Position numbers and translations under genes: made by a program. 46,606 nucleotides of DNA, from positions 1-46,606 of the forward strand of contig CANOYR010000011.1 in assembly GCA_947571655.1 (NCBI GenBank). Reading direction: 5' to 3'. Shown in pieces: positions 40,064 to 46,374 of this stretch. The stretch is from an uncultured Caryophanales bacterium. Lineage in GTDB: Bacteria; Bacillota_I; Bacilli_A; RF39; UBA660. The notes beneath the pieces were generated by a model, which saw only the letters and a program-made list of their open reading frames with translations, did no database searches and had not been told where the DNA came from. How positions within the stretch are numbered: position 1 is the stretch's first letter; each line of letters starts with the position of its first letter.

Positions 40064-40674
40064 AAATTTCATCTCCTTAAAATTTTTGTTAATCAATACC
40101 AATTTAAACCTTATGTTCAATCTATTTATTATTGAACGGAGTTATCATAATTCTATTCTTAATTTTCTTATATTTTTTATGATACATCGTTTATTGTTCA
40201 TTTTTATTCATCAATTTTAAATTCTACTACAATCCATTTATTATTTACTTCTTTTACAAGTCTATATTCCTCATTTTTTAGTTACTTATGTGCTATTTAA
40301 AAATTCTGTTTTTCTATTAAAATTATTTTAAGTATATCATAATATGATATTGGTTATAAAGATTTTAATAAAGTTTATTAGATTCATAATCTTTTCATAA
40401 AATATATTTTTTATAGAAGTACCAAAGATTTTATTTATCTTTAAGCATTTAAAAGAATAATAATACTTATATTATGAGTATAGAAAAAAAACTCACAAAC
40501 CATTTTTTGGTATGTGAGAATTTATTTCAATGGTACGATTACCAATAGGGTTATGCACACCAAATATTAAACAACTCATTTGTATTTGATGTATAAATTA
40601 TAACGCCAATTTTCTTATCAAACAATATATTTTAAATTTTTGTTTATATTTCTTGAAGTTTCTAATATAAGACA
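40064..40674. other. Gene-poor stretch with short coding-like remnants
   Basis: About 600 bases hold no complete gene. Two minus-strand fragments look coding: 40204-40281 (EEYRLVKEVNNKWIVVEF and then KIDE) and roughly 40551-40635 (KKIGVIIYTSNTNELFN and WCA), both ending in proper stops. They have no starts and are probably remnants of lost genes. A terminator at 40484-40518 lies between them. Confidence 0.4.
40484..40518 (-). terminator. Terminator downstream of the HAM1-like gene
   Basis: CTCACA and TGTGAG, extended by partly paired bases, form a hairpin at 40492-40518, followed on the minus strand by eight T residues. It probably ends the WYL-SIS-HAM1 transcript. Confidence 0.75.
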
Positions 40675-41295
40675 TTAGTTAGTATTCATATCTTTTACCA
40701 ATCTTTTTGAATTTTTATAATTACTTATATACCACTCTATAAATTCATCTGTAGCACTAGTTCTATTATCAGGTCTATTATTTCTTTCTTCATCTGACAT
40801 TTCAGCTAAAGTTTTACTACAATTCATTGGTATAAACACAAACCATAAATTTGATTTAGCTCTTTTGTTTTGTTCTCCTCTTATTTCATGTGAAAGTGTA
40901 CCTTTGCTAACTCCGAAGAATTGAAAATAATCATTGCCATCAAAGAATGTTAAGCAATCAAGAAAATAGCAATTCCTATTCTGAGTTTGTTTCATTATTT
41001 CTAATAGCTCTACAATATTTGATGAAATACCACTTCTTTTAACAAAAGCACCAGGATATCCAGGATTGCTAGGATAATCTTCTATATAAAAACCAGAATC
41101 AGCAACAAAAACAGGTGTTCCTAATATTTCAAATGATTGCCTAGCTTTTTCTTTTGATATAAATTCTATATCATTAATATCTGGTTCTTCTAAATCACAT
41201 TTAAAATAATCTATTGTGATTCCCGCATTTTCAAACTTTTCTTTTACAGAAACATATTTACCATAATTTCCAGTTATATAAGTTAAGTTTTCCAT
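40675..41295 (-). CDS. HAM1/ITPase-like nucleotide pyrophosphatase
   Basis: The family hydrolyses non-canonical purine NTPs such as ITP and XTP. The 206-residue protein has the N-terminal phosphate-binding segment TYITGNYGKYVSVKEKF, the metal site region VADSGFYIEDYPSNPGYPGAF, and KTLAEMSDEERNNRPDNRTSA near the end. The substrate pocket residues differ from the housekeeping enzyme, so the substrate could be another nucleotide. It starts one base after the SIS gene, and its ribosome binding site lies inside that gene, so the two are translated together. It is in the accessory right arm. Confidence 0.75.
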   Translation of the reverse strand: MENLTYITGNYGKYVSVKEKFENAGITIDYFKCDLEEPDINDIEFISKEKARQSFEILGTPVFVADSGFYIEDYPSNPGYPGAFVKRSGISSNIVELLEIMKQTQNRNCYFLDCLTFFDGNDYFQFFGVSKGTLSHEIRGEQNKRAKSNLWFVFIPMNCSKTLAEMSDEERNNRPDNRTSATDEFIEWYISNYKNSKRLVKDMNTN

Positions 41296-41296
41296 A

Positions 41297-42379
41297 TTAC
41301 ATTTCTCCTTTATATTTATATAATTTTTTTACTACTTGTGGATTATATTCAGGCATTGTAAGATTGATACCTTTATCTTCTGCTACTTTTTTAGATAAAA
41401 AATACATTTGTAAAGCTAAATAATATTCTTTCCAAAATATGCTTACATCTTCATCTAAAGTGTGAAATAAGAAAATATTAGGATATTCTTGTGTTAATAT
41501 TGGTAATAATTCATTATCTAAGTTCTTCATTTGATGTGTTAAATAAATAATAGGACTTTCAGGATTTTGAAATAGTAAATTGCTTCTACCATGACAATAT
41601 GACCCTTTATCATGAACAACAACACCAGAAGTTCCTGTTTCTATCATATTAGATTCTAAAATAGAAGATGAACAAGTTGTGTCATACCCTGACATAATTT
41701 GGATTAAATTTGTATCTTTGAAATTGAAGTCAAGATTATTAATTCGATTTTTACTTTTTTCTAATAATTGTTTCAATTTCTCATTTATTTTTGCCAAATC
41801 TTCGCTTGATAATTCCGACTTTTTTTCTTCTTTTAATATACTTAGTTCTAAAAACATTAACATGGGTGCAAGTGTAGGAATAATTGAAATAAAACTTTTT
41901 TCTCGTTCTTTATATTTACCATTACTCCAATAAAGAATATCAAATAAAGATGCTGATTCATTTTTGAAATAACCTGAGTCATGTGTGTAATCATCTTCTT
42001 GATGGACATATTCACTGGTAATTAAATACCCACTGCCAGGGAAATCTCTAAGTATATCTAATACTCCATTTGACTTGCCACTACTAGAAAGTACAATTAA
42101 ATTTTTAAATTGATTAATATTTCCTTTATAAAAATAATCTCTTGGTTCGATTACCTCACATAAAGTTTCTCTTGATTCTAAGAACATTTTAAGATAATAA
42201 GCTACAGCTTTAGAACCTCCAGTTGCAACAATTAATGTAGGAACATTTCTAAATAAATATCCTGCTTGTCTACTAAACCCAAAATTGGTAAATAAATTAG
42301 GATCATTTATTTGTAATAATCTTTCTTCAATTTTTGAAAAATTAATTTCAGTTTCTTCAGTATGTTTGTGATTTATCAT
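41297..42379 (-). CDS. SIS-domain protein (GlmS-isomerase-like)
   Basis: The 360-residue protein has two SIS-type domains, found in enzymes or regulators that bind phosphosugars. Signs are LIVATGGSKAVAYYL near residue 50, LIVLSSSGKSNGVLDILRD, and in the second half IETGTSGVVVHDKGSYCHGRSN. The layout resembles the isomerase half of GlmS, without the glutamine amidotransferase domain. AAAGGAGA lies nine bases before ATG 42379. It follows the WYL regulator by 57 bases and precedes the HAM1-like gene by one. The true substrate is unknown. Confidence 0.78.
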   Translation of the reverse strand: MINHKHTEETEINFSKIEERLLQINDPNLFTNFGFSRQAGYLFRNVPTLIVATGGSKAVAYYLKMFLESRETLCEVIEPRDYFYKGNINQFKNLIVLSSSGKSNGVLDILRDFPGSGYLITSEYVHQEDDYTHDSGYFKNESASLFDILYWSNGKYKEREKSFISIIPTLAPMLMFLELSILKEEKKSELSSEDLAKINEKLKQLLEKSKNRINNLDFNFKDTNLIQIMSGYDTTCSSSILESNMIETGTSGVVVHDKGSYCHGRSNLLFQNPESPIIYLTHQMKNLDNELLPILTQEYPNIFLFHTLDEDVSIFWKEYYLALQMYFLSKKVAEDKGINLTMPEYNPQVVKKLYKYKGEM

Positions 42380-42436
42380 AATAAAATCTCTCCTTTTTCT
42401 AGTTATAGAATAACAAAAGAAGAGGTAATATATATG

Positions 42437-42916
42437 TCAGTTATAAAAATTTTCTAAAATTTCTATTGATTTAATTCTATTAATGTAAAAATGTCTTATT
42501 TCTTGCTTTTTTTCACAGTAAGCGGCAACTCCCCATTCATTTCCTAAAAGAATTAAATCATAGGGATGAATAGTTCTTTTTGAAGCACTTTTCTCATCTT
42601 TAGAATAATACTCTATAAAACATTTTCTTTTTTCTTTTATAGCTCTATTAATTAAGTTAAATAAATCTTTGTTTTTAATATTTATAGCATTTGGTGTTAT
42701 AAATCTTTTAGGAACATTTATATTTTGATTTAATACATAACCACCATAAGGCCCTTTAATAGTATCAATAAAAATCCCAGCTTTTTCTATTTCTTCTTTA
42801 TAAACTCTAATCATTCTTTGAGTAACTTCTAGTTTCTCTGATAACTCTTTTATACTATATTTTCTTCCTGAACTTAAATATTCAAGCATAGTAAGAACAT
42901 TACTAATTTTAGACAT
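42437..42916 (-). CDS. HTH-WYL transcription regulator
   Basis: The start is ATG 42916 (MSKISNVLTML), with AGGAGGTG four bases upstream. The 159-residue protein has an N-terminal DeoR-type helix-turn-helix (YSIKELSEKLEVTQRMIRVY) and a C-terminal WYL domain (HPYDLILLGNEWGVAAYCEK), in which the family Trp-Tyr-Leu is Trp-Gly-Val. WYL domains often sense nucleic acid or nucleotides and control phage defence or stress genes. It probably regulates its own operon with the SIS and HAM1-like genes. Confidence 0.82.
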   Translation of the reverse strand: MSKISNVLTMLEYLSSGRKYSIKELSEKLEVTQRMIRVYKEEIEKAGIFIDTIKGPYGGYVLNQNINVPKRFITPNAINIKNKDLFNLINRAIKEKRKCFIEYYSKDEKSASKRTIHPYDLILLGNEWGVAAYCEKKQEIRHFYINRIKSIEILENFYN

Positions 42917-42994: not shown

Positions 42995-43846
42995 CTAATC
43001 AATTTTATTCTTCACTTTAATTTCTAATTGTTTTCTTTCTTTTTCTAATTCCTTTAAACTTTTTTTAGGAGTTGGTAATTCTTCAGGCATTGTTCCACCT
43101 AGTTCTTTTATTGTTTTTCTTATTTTACTACCTACTTCATAATGAGCTTTATTTGCTTCTTTCTCAGTTTTAATATTTTCTTTCTTTAATTTTTGCTCTG
43201 TTTGTGAAATTCTAAATAAATTTGCAATTAATTCATCACTACCCATGTTATCCAATATATCTTCTCTATATCTAAGTTTCTTTCTTTTAGCAATATCATC
43301 TGCCGTTTCACCATTGTATAATCCTTTATATCCATAATTGTGAAATTTATCATAATTCTTAACTCCAGCATTTTTAGCCATTTGATTCAACGAATAATTT
43401 CCTTTTTTGGTTAAGTTTCTTTGATAAAATCTTTTTTCATCTTCTGTTAACTCACTATATTCTTTTTCATTTATTTCTTGTTTTCTTGTTTGTATTGCAA
43501 AGTAGGTTTGACCTAAAGCAACTACTTCCTTTCTTGGATCAGCATTCTGAACAATTAAGTAACAAGCATATCTATTCAATTTGTAATCTAATATTTTTTT
43601 TACTCCGCCATTGGGCATTTTGGATGTTTTCCTGACCTCAGGAAAACATCCAACTATATTATAGTTACTATTTTCACAAGCTACCATTGCATTTTTTATA
43701 ACCTTATGAAAGTTTTCCCATTTACTATATTCTAGTGCCATCATTAATTCTCTAGCATTCCAATATTCATAGCCATTTTCATCGATATGTTTTATATCTT
43801 CAAAAGTAGTATTATTTTTTATATTTTTACTTATTATTTTATTCAA
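42995..43846 (-). CDS. dinD: DinD-type DNA damage-inducible protein
   Basis: The start is TTG 43846, with GAGGGGGG nine bases upstream; no ATG is nearby. The 283-residue protein has an N-terminal BRO-like region (YEYWNARELMMALEYSKWEN) and the DinD middle (KLNRYACYLIVQNADPRKEV, then ALGQTYFAIQTRKQEI), plus a long charged helical tail. In Escherichia coli DinD is SOS-induced and affects RecA filaments. A perfect 14-base inverted repeat lies inside the gene at 43622-43651. It is part of the mobile-looking right arm. Confidence 0.85.
   Translation of the reverse strand: MNKIISKNIKNNTTFEDIKHIDENGYEYWNARELMMALEYSKWENFHKVIKNAMVACENSNYNIVGCFPEVRKTSKMPNGGVKKILDYKLNRYACYLIVQNADPRKEVVALGQTYFAIQTRKQEINEKEYSELTEDEKRFYQRNLTKKGNYSLNQMAKNAGVKNYDKFHNYGYKGLYNGETADDIAKRKKLRYREDILDNMGSDELIANLFRISQTEQKLKKENIKTEKEANKAHYEVGSKIRKTIKELGGTMPEELPTPKKSLKELEKERKQLEIKVKNKID
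43622..43651. repeat. Perfect inverted repeat inside dinD
   Basis: The arms GGATGTTTTCCTGA and TCAGGAAAACATCC are fully complementary over 14 bases with a CC centre. It lies inside coding sequence with no T run, so it is not a simple terminator. Confidence 0.75.
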
Positions 43847-43902: not shown

Positions 43903-44235
43903 TTAATTTATAAAATTATCTCTATATCTATTATTTGCATCCAAAAATTCTTGATAGCATCTATCATTTTCTAATGAAATATTTTTGGCAAAGCCCATAT
44001 TAACAAAGAATTGTGCTAGTAATTTTTTAGTAAATGTTTCTCTATAAAGTAATCTATTTAATTTAGAATCTATATCATTCATCATATCTAAACTTGATTC
44101 TTGATACATAGCTAAATCTATACATTTTCTTATTACTTCAGATCTATTTTTTAGTTTAAATTTTTTCATTAATGTATCTAAATGTTTCAAATCAATTTCA
44201 TCAAATTTTATACTACATATTTTTAATTTTTTCAT
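43903..44235 (-). CDS. Ribbon-helix-helix DNA-binding protein
   Basis: The 110-residue protein begins with a beta strand (KKLKICSIKFDEIDLKHLDTL) and then KKFKLKNRSEVIRKCIDLAM, the ribbon-helix-helix pattern of CopG/Arc-type proteins. The rest is helical, possibly for dimer or partner binding. Such proteins repress plasmid genes, act in partition, or assist relaxases at oriT. GGAGGTG precedes the ATG. Two inverted repeats begin about 60 bases upstream and may be its binding sites. No relaxase or ParA is visible in the window. Confidence 0.75.
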   Translation of the reverse strand: MKKLKICSIKFDEIDLKHLDTLMKKFKLKNRSEVIRKCIDLAMYQESSLDMMNDIDSKLNRLLYRETFTKKLLAQFFVNMGFAKNISLENDRCYQEFLDANNRYRDNFIN

Positions 44236-44645: not shown

Positions 44646-44670
44646 AAAAAAGAAGCAAATCTCACGCTTC
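44646..44670 (-). terminator. Terminator of the serine recombinase gene
   Basis: GAAGC and GCTTC pair around a nine-base loop, followed by six T residues on the minus strand. The TGA stop of the recombinase (44662-44664) is in the loop. Confidence 0.6.
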
Positions 44671-46374
44671 AATTTGTAATATTTTAAATTTATTTTTTTC
44701 AAATTTATTCTTTTTTTGTTGTGGAATTATTTGTATTACTTCATCAAAACTAAACTCATTTATATCAAATAACTCTCCCTCAATTTCTGTTTCTTTTACA
44801 TTATAAAAGTTTCTTAATGTATTAATATAGTTTTCAGTTTCTTCTTTATTTTTATAATTAGAAATAATTAAATCTCTATCTTCAACATTAATAATCATAT
44901 CAAAGCAATCATTTCTAAACATATAACCAATATTCTCAATTTCATTTTTATTGAAGATAATATTAGTAATTGTTACATTATGTTCTTTATCAATTTTAAC
45001 TTCAAACTCATCAATATATTTATTAATAATATATTGTTTTTGTTCTTGTGTTAATTCCATCCATAGATTATTTTGTTTCACATAATCTGATTTTATTTTT
45101 ATTTTTTCAATTTCTTTTAGATTAAAAAATGTATTAATATCTTGCTTATAATCTAGTGAATTTTGTATTTTTTCTAACTCATTTATTTTATTTTTCACAA
45201 TATCTATTTCTGAATTTAATGTTTTAATTTCTTTTTGTAAATCGTTTGGTTCTAGTAAGCCATCAACAAATGCTTTTTTAATTCTTTTATCTTTTTCTTC
45301 TAATTCTAATAATTTATTTTCATATTTTATTATTTCATTAGAAGTATCTTTATTCATTATAGGTTTAAACGAATTATCAATAATTAAGAAGAAATCTAAC
45401 ATATCATTTAAAAATTTAAGTATAGTTTTTTCAATTTTCTTTTCGCTAATTCTCAAAGTACAATGAGAGCATTGATAATAAAAATGTTTCTTTCCAGTTT
45501 TACTTGTACTAGAACTTCCACCCATAATTTTATTACATTTAGGACATCTAACTTTTTGCATAAAGATAAATGAATGTTTTCTAGTATAATTCTTTAAATT
45601 CTTTTCTTTTCGCTTTTGAACCATTTTAAAGTTAGTTTTATCTATAATTGCAGGAACAACTCCCTCAAACACCTGAATTTCTTTACTATCTTTTTTTCCA
45701 TGAACTACATTACCAATATATAACTGATTAGATAGTATTTTATCTACTGTTGTAGTAGGCCATCTTCTATTTAATAAATTTTCTTCTTTAAATAATTTAC
45801 ATATAGAACATACTGACATACCATCTAAATAGAGTCTAAATATTCTTCTTACAACTTCTGCTTCAACCTCATCAATGACAATTGTTTTATCTTTTCCATT
45901 TTTAGTATAGCCAAGTGGTGGTTGCCCTGAAATATGACCTTTTCTTGCCGCACCAATCATACCAAATTTAGTTCTTTCAGAACATCTTTCAATTTCTAGT
46001 TGTGCAAGTATTGTAGTTATTCTAATAAAGAATTTACCAGTTGCTGTATCTGTATTAATATCTTCTGATATGCTTTCTAAACTACAATTATATTCTTCTA
46101 ACATCTTACAAATACTTTCTAAATCTTGAATAGAACGAGTTAATCTATCTAGTTTATAAACTATTATTTTATTAATCTTTCCATCTTTCATATCTTGTAT
46201 CATTTCTTGAAACATTGGTCTTTTCATGCTTTTTGCCGAAACGCCTTCTTCACGATACACTTTATATATTTCATATTCTTTATAATCACATAGTTTTTTA
46301 AGTCTATCTTCTTGTTCATCCAAACTATGTCCATATCTACTTTGATCCTCAGTTGATACTCTTACGGAACACAT
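44662..46374 (-). CDS. Large serine recombinase
   Basis: This site-specific recombinase integrates and excises mobile elements through a phosphoserine link. The 570-residue protein has the resolvase domain (VRVSTEDQ with catalytic Ser7, then YKLDRLTRS), the recombinase domain (ARKGHISGQPPLGY), a zinc ribbon (CPKC at 277-280, CSHC at 302-305) and a long coiled coil. The N-terminus is short by three or four residues and lacks a ribosome binding site. The frame is open for nine more codons upstream (ending IIRYMCSV) up to a TAG. The start may therefore be damaged or lie at an unusual codon. Confidence 0.9.
   Translation of the reverse strand: MCSVRVSTEDQSRYGHSLDEQEDRLKKLCDYKEYEIYKVYREEGVSAKSMKRPMFQEMIQDMKDGKINKIIVYKLDRLTRSIQDLESICKMLEEYNCSLESISEDINTDTATGKFFIRITTILAQLEIERCSERTKFGMIGAARKGHISGQPPLGYTKNGKDKTIVIDEVEAEVVRRIFRLYLDGMSVCSICKLFKEENLLNRRWPTTTVDKILSNQLYIGNVVHGKKDSKEIQVFEGVVPAIIDKTNFKMVQKRKEKNLKNYTRKHSFIFMQKVRCPKCNKIMGGSSSTSKTGKKHFYYQCSHCTLRISEKKIEKTILKFLNDMLDFFLIIDNSFKPIMNKDTSNEIIKYENKLLELEEKDKRIKKAFVDGLLEPNDLQKEIKTLNSEIDIVKNKINELEKIQNSLDYKQDINTFFNLKEIEKIKIKSDYVKQNNLWMELTQEQKQYIINKYIDEFEVKIDKEHNVTITNIIFNKNEIENIGYMFRNDCFDMIINVEDRDLIISNYKNKEETENYINTLRNFYNVKETEIEGELFDINEFSFDEVIQIIPQQKKNKFEKNKFKILQIEA

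Follow-up and report, generated by a model that had tools for sequence, protein, structure and literature searches.

A conserved WYL-SIS-HAM1 operon with a predicted promoter-in-hairpin element ahead of its SIS gene

Introduction

Regulators of the WYL family work in more than one way. Activators such as PafBC combine a -26 box with sigma adaptation, and some members of the family bind to promoter DNA in the ligand-free state (PMC11804915). Two further reports describe WYL regulators that control defence systems (PMC9122588, PMC9122601). A switch of a different kind is found in phage T4, where long transcripts of gene e (lysozyme) form a hairpin that covers the ribosome site, whereas mRNA from an internal promoter begins too late to include the 5′ arm (PMC3014915).

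Two enzyme families are also relevant here. GlmS, a two-SIS-domain isomerase, uses the catalytic pair Glu488/His504 (PMC9272926). In the HAM1/ITPase superfamily, ITPA reads hypoxanthine and xanthine through its SHR signature (Arg178) and Phe149 (PMC5075207), and a HAM1-fold protein, KomB, works in the Kongming defence system (PMC12948488).

Here we describe an operon that links a WYL regulator to a SIS protein and a HAM1 protein. It lies in a stretch of 46,606 nucleotides (the window), contig C11 in a genome of 1.32 Mb and 93.7% completeness. We did not find a WYL-SIS-HAM1 operon described in the literature.

Results

Operon organisation and neighbourhood

The three genes had originally been predicted, from the window alone, to form a single minus-strand operon in an accessory region. 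The features concerned are:

42437-42916, minus strand: HTH-WYL regulator, 159 aa from the ATG at 42916, which is preceded by AGGAGG (Pfam WYL 6.5e-18, HTH_11 2.6e-7)
41297-42379, minus strand: two-SIS-domain protein, 360 aa (AlphaFold2 model)
41305-41310, minus strand: ribosome binding site of HAM1, AAGGAG, inside the SIS gene (from sequence)
40675-41295, minus strand: predicted HAM1-family NTP pyrophosphatase, 206 aa (Pfam Ham1p_like 3.4e-20, structure model and residues)
40484-40518, minus strand: intrinsic-terminator-like hairpin after HAM1, CTCACATACC-aaaaaat-GGTTTGTGAG followed by a T-run (by eye)
42995-43846: DinD, directly upstream of the WYL gene (PADLOC candidate PDC-S13)
43903-44235: RHH-like ORF, no Pfam match
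44662-46374: large serine recombinase, near the contig end

Most of this prediction stands. All three ORFs lie on the minus strand, and their order and tight spacing are kept in relatives. A single base (41296) separates the SIS stop codon from the HAM1 ATG, and the HAM1 ribosome binding site (41310-41305) is within the SIS gene, both as predicted. The proposed terminator is visible by eye as a hairpin and T-run, but is absent from the list given by a consensus terminator scan. Among the proposed neighbours, DinD and the large serine recombinase are present, while the ORF taken for an RHH protein lacks a Pfam match. The neighbours of HAM1 in the window are WYL, SIS, DinD and DUF1848. DinD also precedes WYL in one other locus (L039).

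The accessory character of the region was confirmed by comparison with three relatives of the genus. The site of the operon is variable, since a block conserved in these sister genomes ends at about 39.1 kb and is trailed there by unrelated genes. Borders of a mobile element around the large serine recombinase were not found.

Conservation, distribution and transfer

Complete WYL-SIS-HAM1 triples in this order were found at 43 loci, some of which are close relatives of each other. The gap between the SIS stop and the HAM1 ATG is 1 nt in 36 triples, 2 nt in six and 0 in one. The arrangement is far beyond chance, and the operon is real and conserved; the original prediction, which proposed a search for this neighbourhood in other genomes, depended on such co-occurrence.

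Within the order, 64 of 288 genomes had SIS relatives; the GTDB contig collection yielded 112 places, of which 80 were kept. Among 395 genomes of the class, strong SIS matches were confined to one taxonomic family, with weak and partial matches outside it (E 7e-6 to 7e-4), and the 10 strong matches to the regulatory element described below all fell within the same family. The SIS family and the element thus appear essentially limited to one taxonomic family. No relatives were detected in phages or plasmids by tblastn, or in viral contigs in three scans.

With the core proteins ObgE and RNase J as yardsticks, identities of the operon proteins are mostly 73-93% in comparisons with genomes where ObgE and RNase J reach only 59-65% and 53-57%, respectively. 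For example, HAM1 and WYL are 81-93% identical to their counterparts in four genomes of other genera (G068, G250, G160 and G081), where core identity is 53-65%. Conversely, a genome of the same genus (G291, core 92-93%) has a SIS of 49%, a HAM1 of 58% and a WYL of 72% identity. Judged by these comparisons, the operon moves horizontally between genera, since its identity is high where that of the core is low and low where that of the core is high. HAM1 is, by the same measure, exchanged independently of the WYL-SIS core, as pairwise identities correlate at only 0.37 for SIS and HAM1 (0.84 for WYL and SIS) and one locus (L137) has a HAM1 88% identical to that of the window with a SIS of 37% (global alignment).

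A few loci carry interrupted genes. The SIS frame is broken and HAM1 intact in L050, L082 and L099, with WYL also split in L050 and L082, through decay or assembly error. G068 likewise has an intact HAM1 beside broken WYL and SIS frames, which could also be an assembly error.

The partners vary. WYL-SIS is also found alone, with PfkB kinases and as PfkB::SIS fusions, and WYL-HAM1 occurs without SIS in G142 and in L340, L347 and L352. We had considered SIS and HAM1 as an obligate pair, and dropped this idea since both WYL-HAM1 and WYL-SIS loci occur. SIS and HAM1 are useful apart, and their separate occurrence argues against an obligate two-step pathway. Of the proposed association of the three genes, the conserved, co-oriented and tightly spaced unit is supported; the SIS/HAM1 pairing is not obligate. 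Operons of the fusion type (L031-L039 and L353) run WYL, HAD, a HAD/PRTase-like protein of about 775 aa, and PfkB::SIS; the HAD is NT5C-like, and the PRTase assignment of the large protein is weak (8.9e-4).

The SIS protein resembles isomerases and deglycases

The SIS protein gave no Pfam match above cut-off and only weak profile matches to solved SIS proteins, so its identity as a two-SIS-domain protein, as originally proposed, rests on the structure model. This model (mean pLDDT 89.7) matched 2aml with a VIA Z of 28.1 (3.7 Å over 328 residues), GlmS/GFAT with a Z of about 25-26 and FrlB with a Z of 22.4, and so falls within the double SIS fold (Z 22-28).

Ten residues (G55, S56, S98, E247, H256, K258, C262, H263, G264 and R265) are invariant in the 69 proteins aligned. 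E247 and H263 are 16 residues apart in 69/69, the spacing of the catalytic Glu/His pair of GlmS, an equivalence drawn from motif and spacing without a printed structural alignment. A C-tail is also present, in which position 357, set beside the catalytic C-tail Lys603 of GlmS, is Lys in 40 and Arg in 16 of the 69. The protein thus shares with the two-SIS isomerases and deglycases GlmS, NagB-II and FrlB the fold, the Glu/His pair and the phosphate-loop serines. It differs from them in sequence (11-17% identity), in having no glutaminase domain, in its invariant HxKxxxCHGR motif and in its partners (WYL, HAM1 or PfkB). From the model we predict a phosphosugar isomerase or deglycase of the GlmS/NagB-II/FrlB type.

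HAM1 keeps the catalytic residues and loses the base-reading ones

The HAM1 protein belongs to the HAM1/ITPase superfamily (Ham1p_like 73.2 bits against a cut-off of 22.5), and its model matched MJ0226 (1b78, Z 22.0 over 181 residues) and PH1917 (1v7r, Z 20.9). Residues N10, K13, E37, K50 and D66, which we take to be catalytic from general knowledge of RdgB, are invariant in 47/47 proteins, and activity is therefore to be expected. Fold and catalytic residues are thus those of RdgB/ITPA proteins, whereas the SHR signature and the aromatic base pocket are replaced: position 178 is Arg in only 21/47, without Ser-His ahead of it, and GFGYDP of PH1917 has become S-x-L-W-x-V-F (S148 and L150 in 47/47, W151 in 46/47). 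NCBIfam equivalog cut-offs were not reached.

Could this protein simply be the housekeeping RdgB of the lineage, placed behind the regulator by chance? No second match to PF01725 occurs in its own nearly complete genome, as might be expected of such an enzyme. However, SHR and GFGYDP are lost, the gene is mobile, and different HAM1 genes with higher scores occur in several relatives while others have none, which makes a housekeeping role very improbable. The fold is also that of KomB (8zsg and 9v0g; Z 19.8 and 19.4). KomB of 8zsg has EHTG in place of the catalytic DSG, while the window's HAM1 keeps the Asp and is not KomB-like in that respect. Neither a SIR2 protein (KomC) nor a deaminase (KomA) lies beside it, as they would in Kongming (KomABC).

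In sister genomes (L160-L163, L165, L168, L170 and L173) there is a second, divergent group of HAM1-like proteins (for example ILFATTNPAKVNRF...), often beside a gene of about 213-220 aa.

A conserved promoter pattern in the WYL-SIS gap

The gap between WYL and SIS contains an element that the original prediction missed. It is conserved in alignments of loci whose SIS proteins are only about 30% identical, with the layout GAC-N3-4-ATAYTNCC, 8 nt, TGN-TANNNT and then the Shine-Dalgarno sequence of the next gene. In the window it comprises:

42424-42438, minus strand: conserved box GACATATATATTACC (GAC-N4-ATATTNCC), overlapping the WYL stop codon; predicted recognition box for WYL and RNA polymerase
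42407-42415, minus strand: extended -10, TGT-TATTCT, 8 nt past the box
42388-42424, minus strand: hairpin whose 3′ arm holds the SIS Shine-Dalgarno sequence AGGAGAG (42394-42388)

We collected 79 distinct copies by the box alone, without using the -10 in the selection. TANNNT was nevertheless present at a fixed spacing in 77 of them (TGNTANNNT in 62/79), with the first T and A of the hexamer in 79/79, the last T in 77/79 and the G of the TG motif in 74/79. The box was found by inspecting these same gaps, which makes the count for the box itself partly circular; the -10 was no part of that pattern. The element has the layout of an extended -10 promoter and shows no recognisable -35.

Of 114 WYL homologues, 105 are followed by the strict motif, and a recognisable variant stands behind most of the other nine. 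Across 3.57 Mb of loci, part of them redundant, the strict motif occurred only seven times elsewhere, always in SIS-bearing loci with no adjoining intact WYL. When the genome of the window was scanned with a sequence model from 50 copies, this operon scored 38.9 bits and the next site 17.8 bits. The spacing within the box tracks the type of WYL protein, with N4 beside short WYL proteins in 49/50 cases and N3 beside long ones in 39/43, which suggests that WYL recognises the box, although shared ancestry also contributes. PafBC and other WYL factors (PMC11804915) are alike in that an activator-type box precedes the -10 and no -35 is recognisable. Unlike PafBC, the regulator of the window is a single short HTH-WYL protein (its 159 aa are too short for a WCX extension), and activation by it is predicted from the motif arrangement.

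The promoter pattern lies in a hairpin over the ribosome site

In 70 of 74 copies, the 5′ arm of the hairpin (CC + N8 + TGN) pairs with the region around the ribosome site of the gene that follows (the copy in the window has a fold z of -2.24). The mean energy of native copies was -11.6 kcal/mol, compared to -7.4 ± 0.26 kcal/mol when 3′ parts were swapped between loci; swaps within spacing classes only gave -11.3 vs -9.0 and -11.6 vs -7.0. Stem positions alternate between UA, AU, CG and GC pairs across copies, in covariation tests that use related sequences. As the -10 is at or near the loop, mRNA from the internal promoter would lack the 5′ arm. At the level of sequence this anatomy fits the T4 gene e leader, and the element may work in the same way; it differs in being bacterial, WYL-linked and placed before several unrelated genes. 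A search of Rfam gave only a chance match and no family for a promoter-in-hairpin element, which by that measure is previously unrecorded; our literature searches covered the operon.

The same region could instead be a DNA operator palindrome, or an RNA attenuator, for repression by WYL. An inverted repeat suits a dimeric repressor, and binding of promoter DNA without ligand is known for some members of the family. Yet the arms vary in sequence with pairing kept and do not form a conserved half-site, while the box and -10 keep both sequence and spacing. We consider repression at an operator or attenuator doubtful, and an activator promoter within an mRNA hairpin is the reading followed below.

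Genes of several kinds follow the element

After a family-wide search for the element and a reading of 20 regions, we took a census of the next genes. SIS (with WYL adjacent) was the most frequent (71), followed by NT5C-like HAD (6), HAM1 alone (4), PRTase operons with HAM1 upstream of WYL (3), CYTH (2) and NADAR (1). NADAR enzymes undo guanine ADP-ribosylation, according to two reports (PMC11543638, PMC11125620). The PRTase operons that were checked continue with radical SAM, thymidylate-kinase-like and queuosine-precursor-transporter genes. Further down the CYTH loci are beta-lactamase-like and GDPD genes, not nucleotide genes.

The HAM1 - WYL - element - PRTase operons are those of L336 (1704-5611), L339 (1759-7193) and L345. 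Those of L336 and L339 hold the radical SAM, thymidylate-kinase-like and/or transporter genes, suggesting salvage of a modified purine. One contig (L335, 2644-6664) carries two adjacent WYL-plus-element cassettes, one before NADAR and the other before NT5C-like HAD.

The common theme of the genes behind the element is nucleotides and nucleobases. The original suggestion that the operon handles a modified or sugar-linked nucleotide is favoured by HAM1, NT5C-like HAD, PRTase, the thymidylate-kinase-like protein, the queuosine transporter, NADAR and CYTH, and this theme places a modified nucleotide above plain sugar catabolism; the PfkB partners fit both. In the latter case SIS would act like FrlB or NagB-II on an intracellular glycated or amino sugar phosphate, PfkB would be the kinase that normally accompanies it, and HAM1 would be an independent house-cleaning gene that shares the regulator. 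The WYL-SIS-PfkB loci and PfkB::SIS fusions agree with this, as do the best fold matches of SIS (GlmS, NagB-II and FrlB) and the model matches of PfkB, among them kinases of the fructoselysine 6-kinase and ribokinase types, none of which reached the cut-off. Against it, no conserved transporter lies beside SIS, and the same element precedes HAM1, PRTase, HAD, NADAR or CYTH without SIS. Sugar-phosphate salvage is thus unlikely, and we continue with a modified nucleotide as the preferred substrate class.

A defence role finds little in its favour

The original prediction raised a possible defence role, to be checked by enrichment in defence islands. In such a role, infection would raise a modified nucleotide or ssDNA, WYL would fire, and HAM1 and SIS would deplete or alter a nucleotide that the phage needs. 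The control of defence systems by other WYL regulators, the mobility and patchy distribution of the cassette and the action of KomB in Kongming all speak for this. However, PADLOC gave nothing for HAM1, only a chance-level match for SIS (0.013) and only generic CRISPR-associated WYL models for WYL. No toxic effector is present, no known defence gene adjoins the operon (DinD being only a candidate), and relatives are absent from the phages, plasmids and viral contigs scanned. Defence, NUDIX and mobile families showed no obvious excess among 141 flank proteins compared to 122 proteins of 20 arbitrary regions, in a small test with hand-picked control regions. An anti-phage function is therefore improbable, and neither the defence role nor the expected enrichment was borne out.

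Two 5-hmdU DNA kinase helical-domain proteins and three UDG-superfamily proteins are among the 141 flank proteins (alignment A5); they are not in the top families of the control, and the numbers are too small to judge.

Discussion

We tentatively favour, at a little short of an even chance, a horizontally moving cassette for a modified nucleotide that is switched by its own WYL regulator. WYL with bound ligand would help RNA polymerase to start between WYL and SIS, at the promoter made up of the GAC..ATAYTNCC box and the extended -10. The resulting mRNA would start past the 5′ arm of the hairpin and leave the SIS ribosome site free, and HAM1 would be translated after SIS by translational coupling. 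In read-through mRNA from the WYL gene, the hairpin would fold and hide the SIS site, giving poor translation. Such regulation would join PafBC-type activation to the logic of T4 gene e.

HAM1 would cut a non-canonical NTP to NMP and pyrophosphate, without the usual residues that read hypoxanthine or xanthine. SIS would apply Glu/His isomerase or deglycase chemistry to a sugar phosphate or amine-sugar phosphate of a related damaged or modified species, and the two may act in one pathway. Several points count against this cassette: SIS and HAM1 each occur without the other, SIS with PfkB kinases equally suits sugar-phosphate metabolism, and the promoter and hairpin could share their site with an operator bound by WYL as a repressor.

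A broader, and less probable, possibility is that WYL and its promoter-in-hairpin switch form a mobile regulatory plug-in of a new class, joined in various gut Bacilli to six or more kinds of gene (SIS, HAM1, HAD nucleotidase-like, PRTase operon, NADAR and CYTH) and responding to one modified-nucleotide or nucleic-acid-damage signal.

If the proposed reading is right, one short element would predict the regulon of an uncharacterised WYL family. A HAM1 with an altered base pocket, a SIS of isomerase type and several nucleotide genes would be tied to a common signal, and the vague observation of WYL near nucleotide genes would become directly testable. The element would also be a chromosomal counterpart of the hairpin logic of T4 lysozyme.
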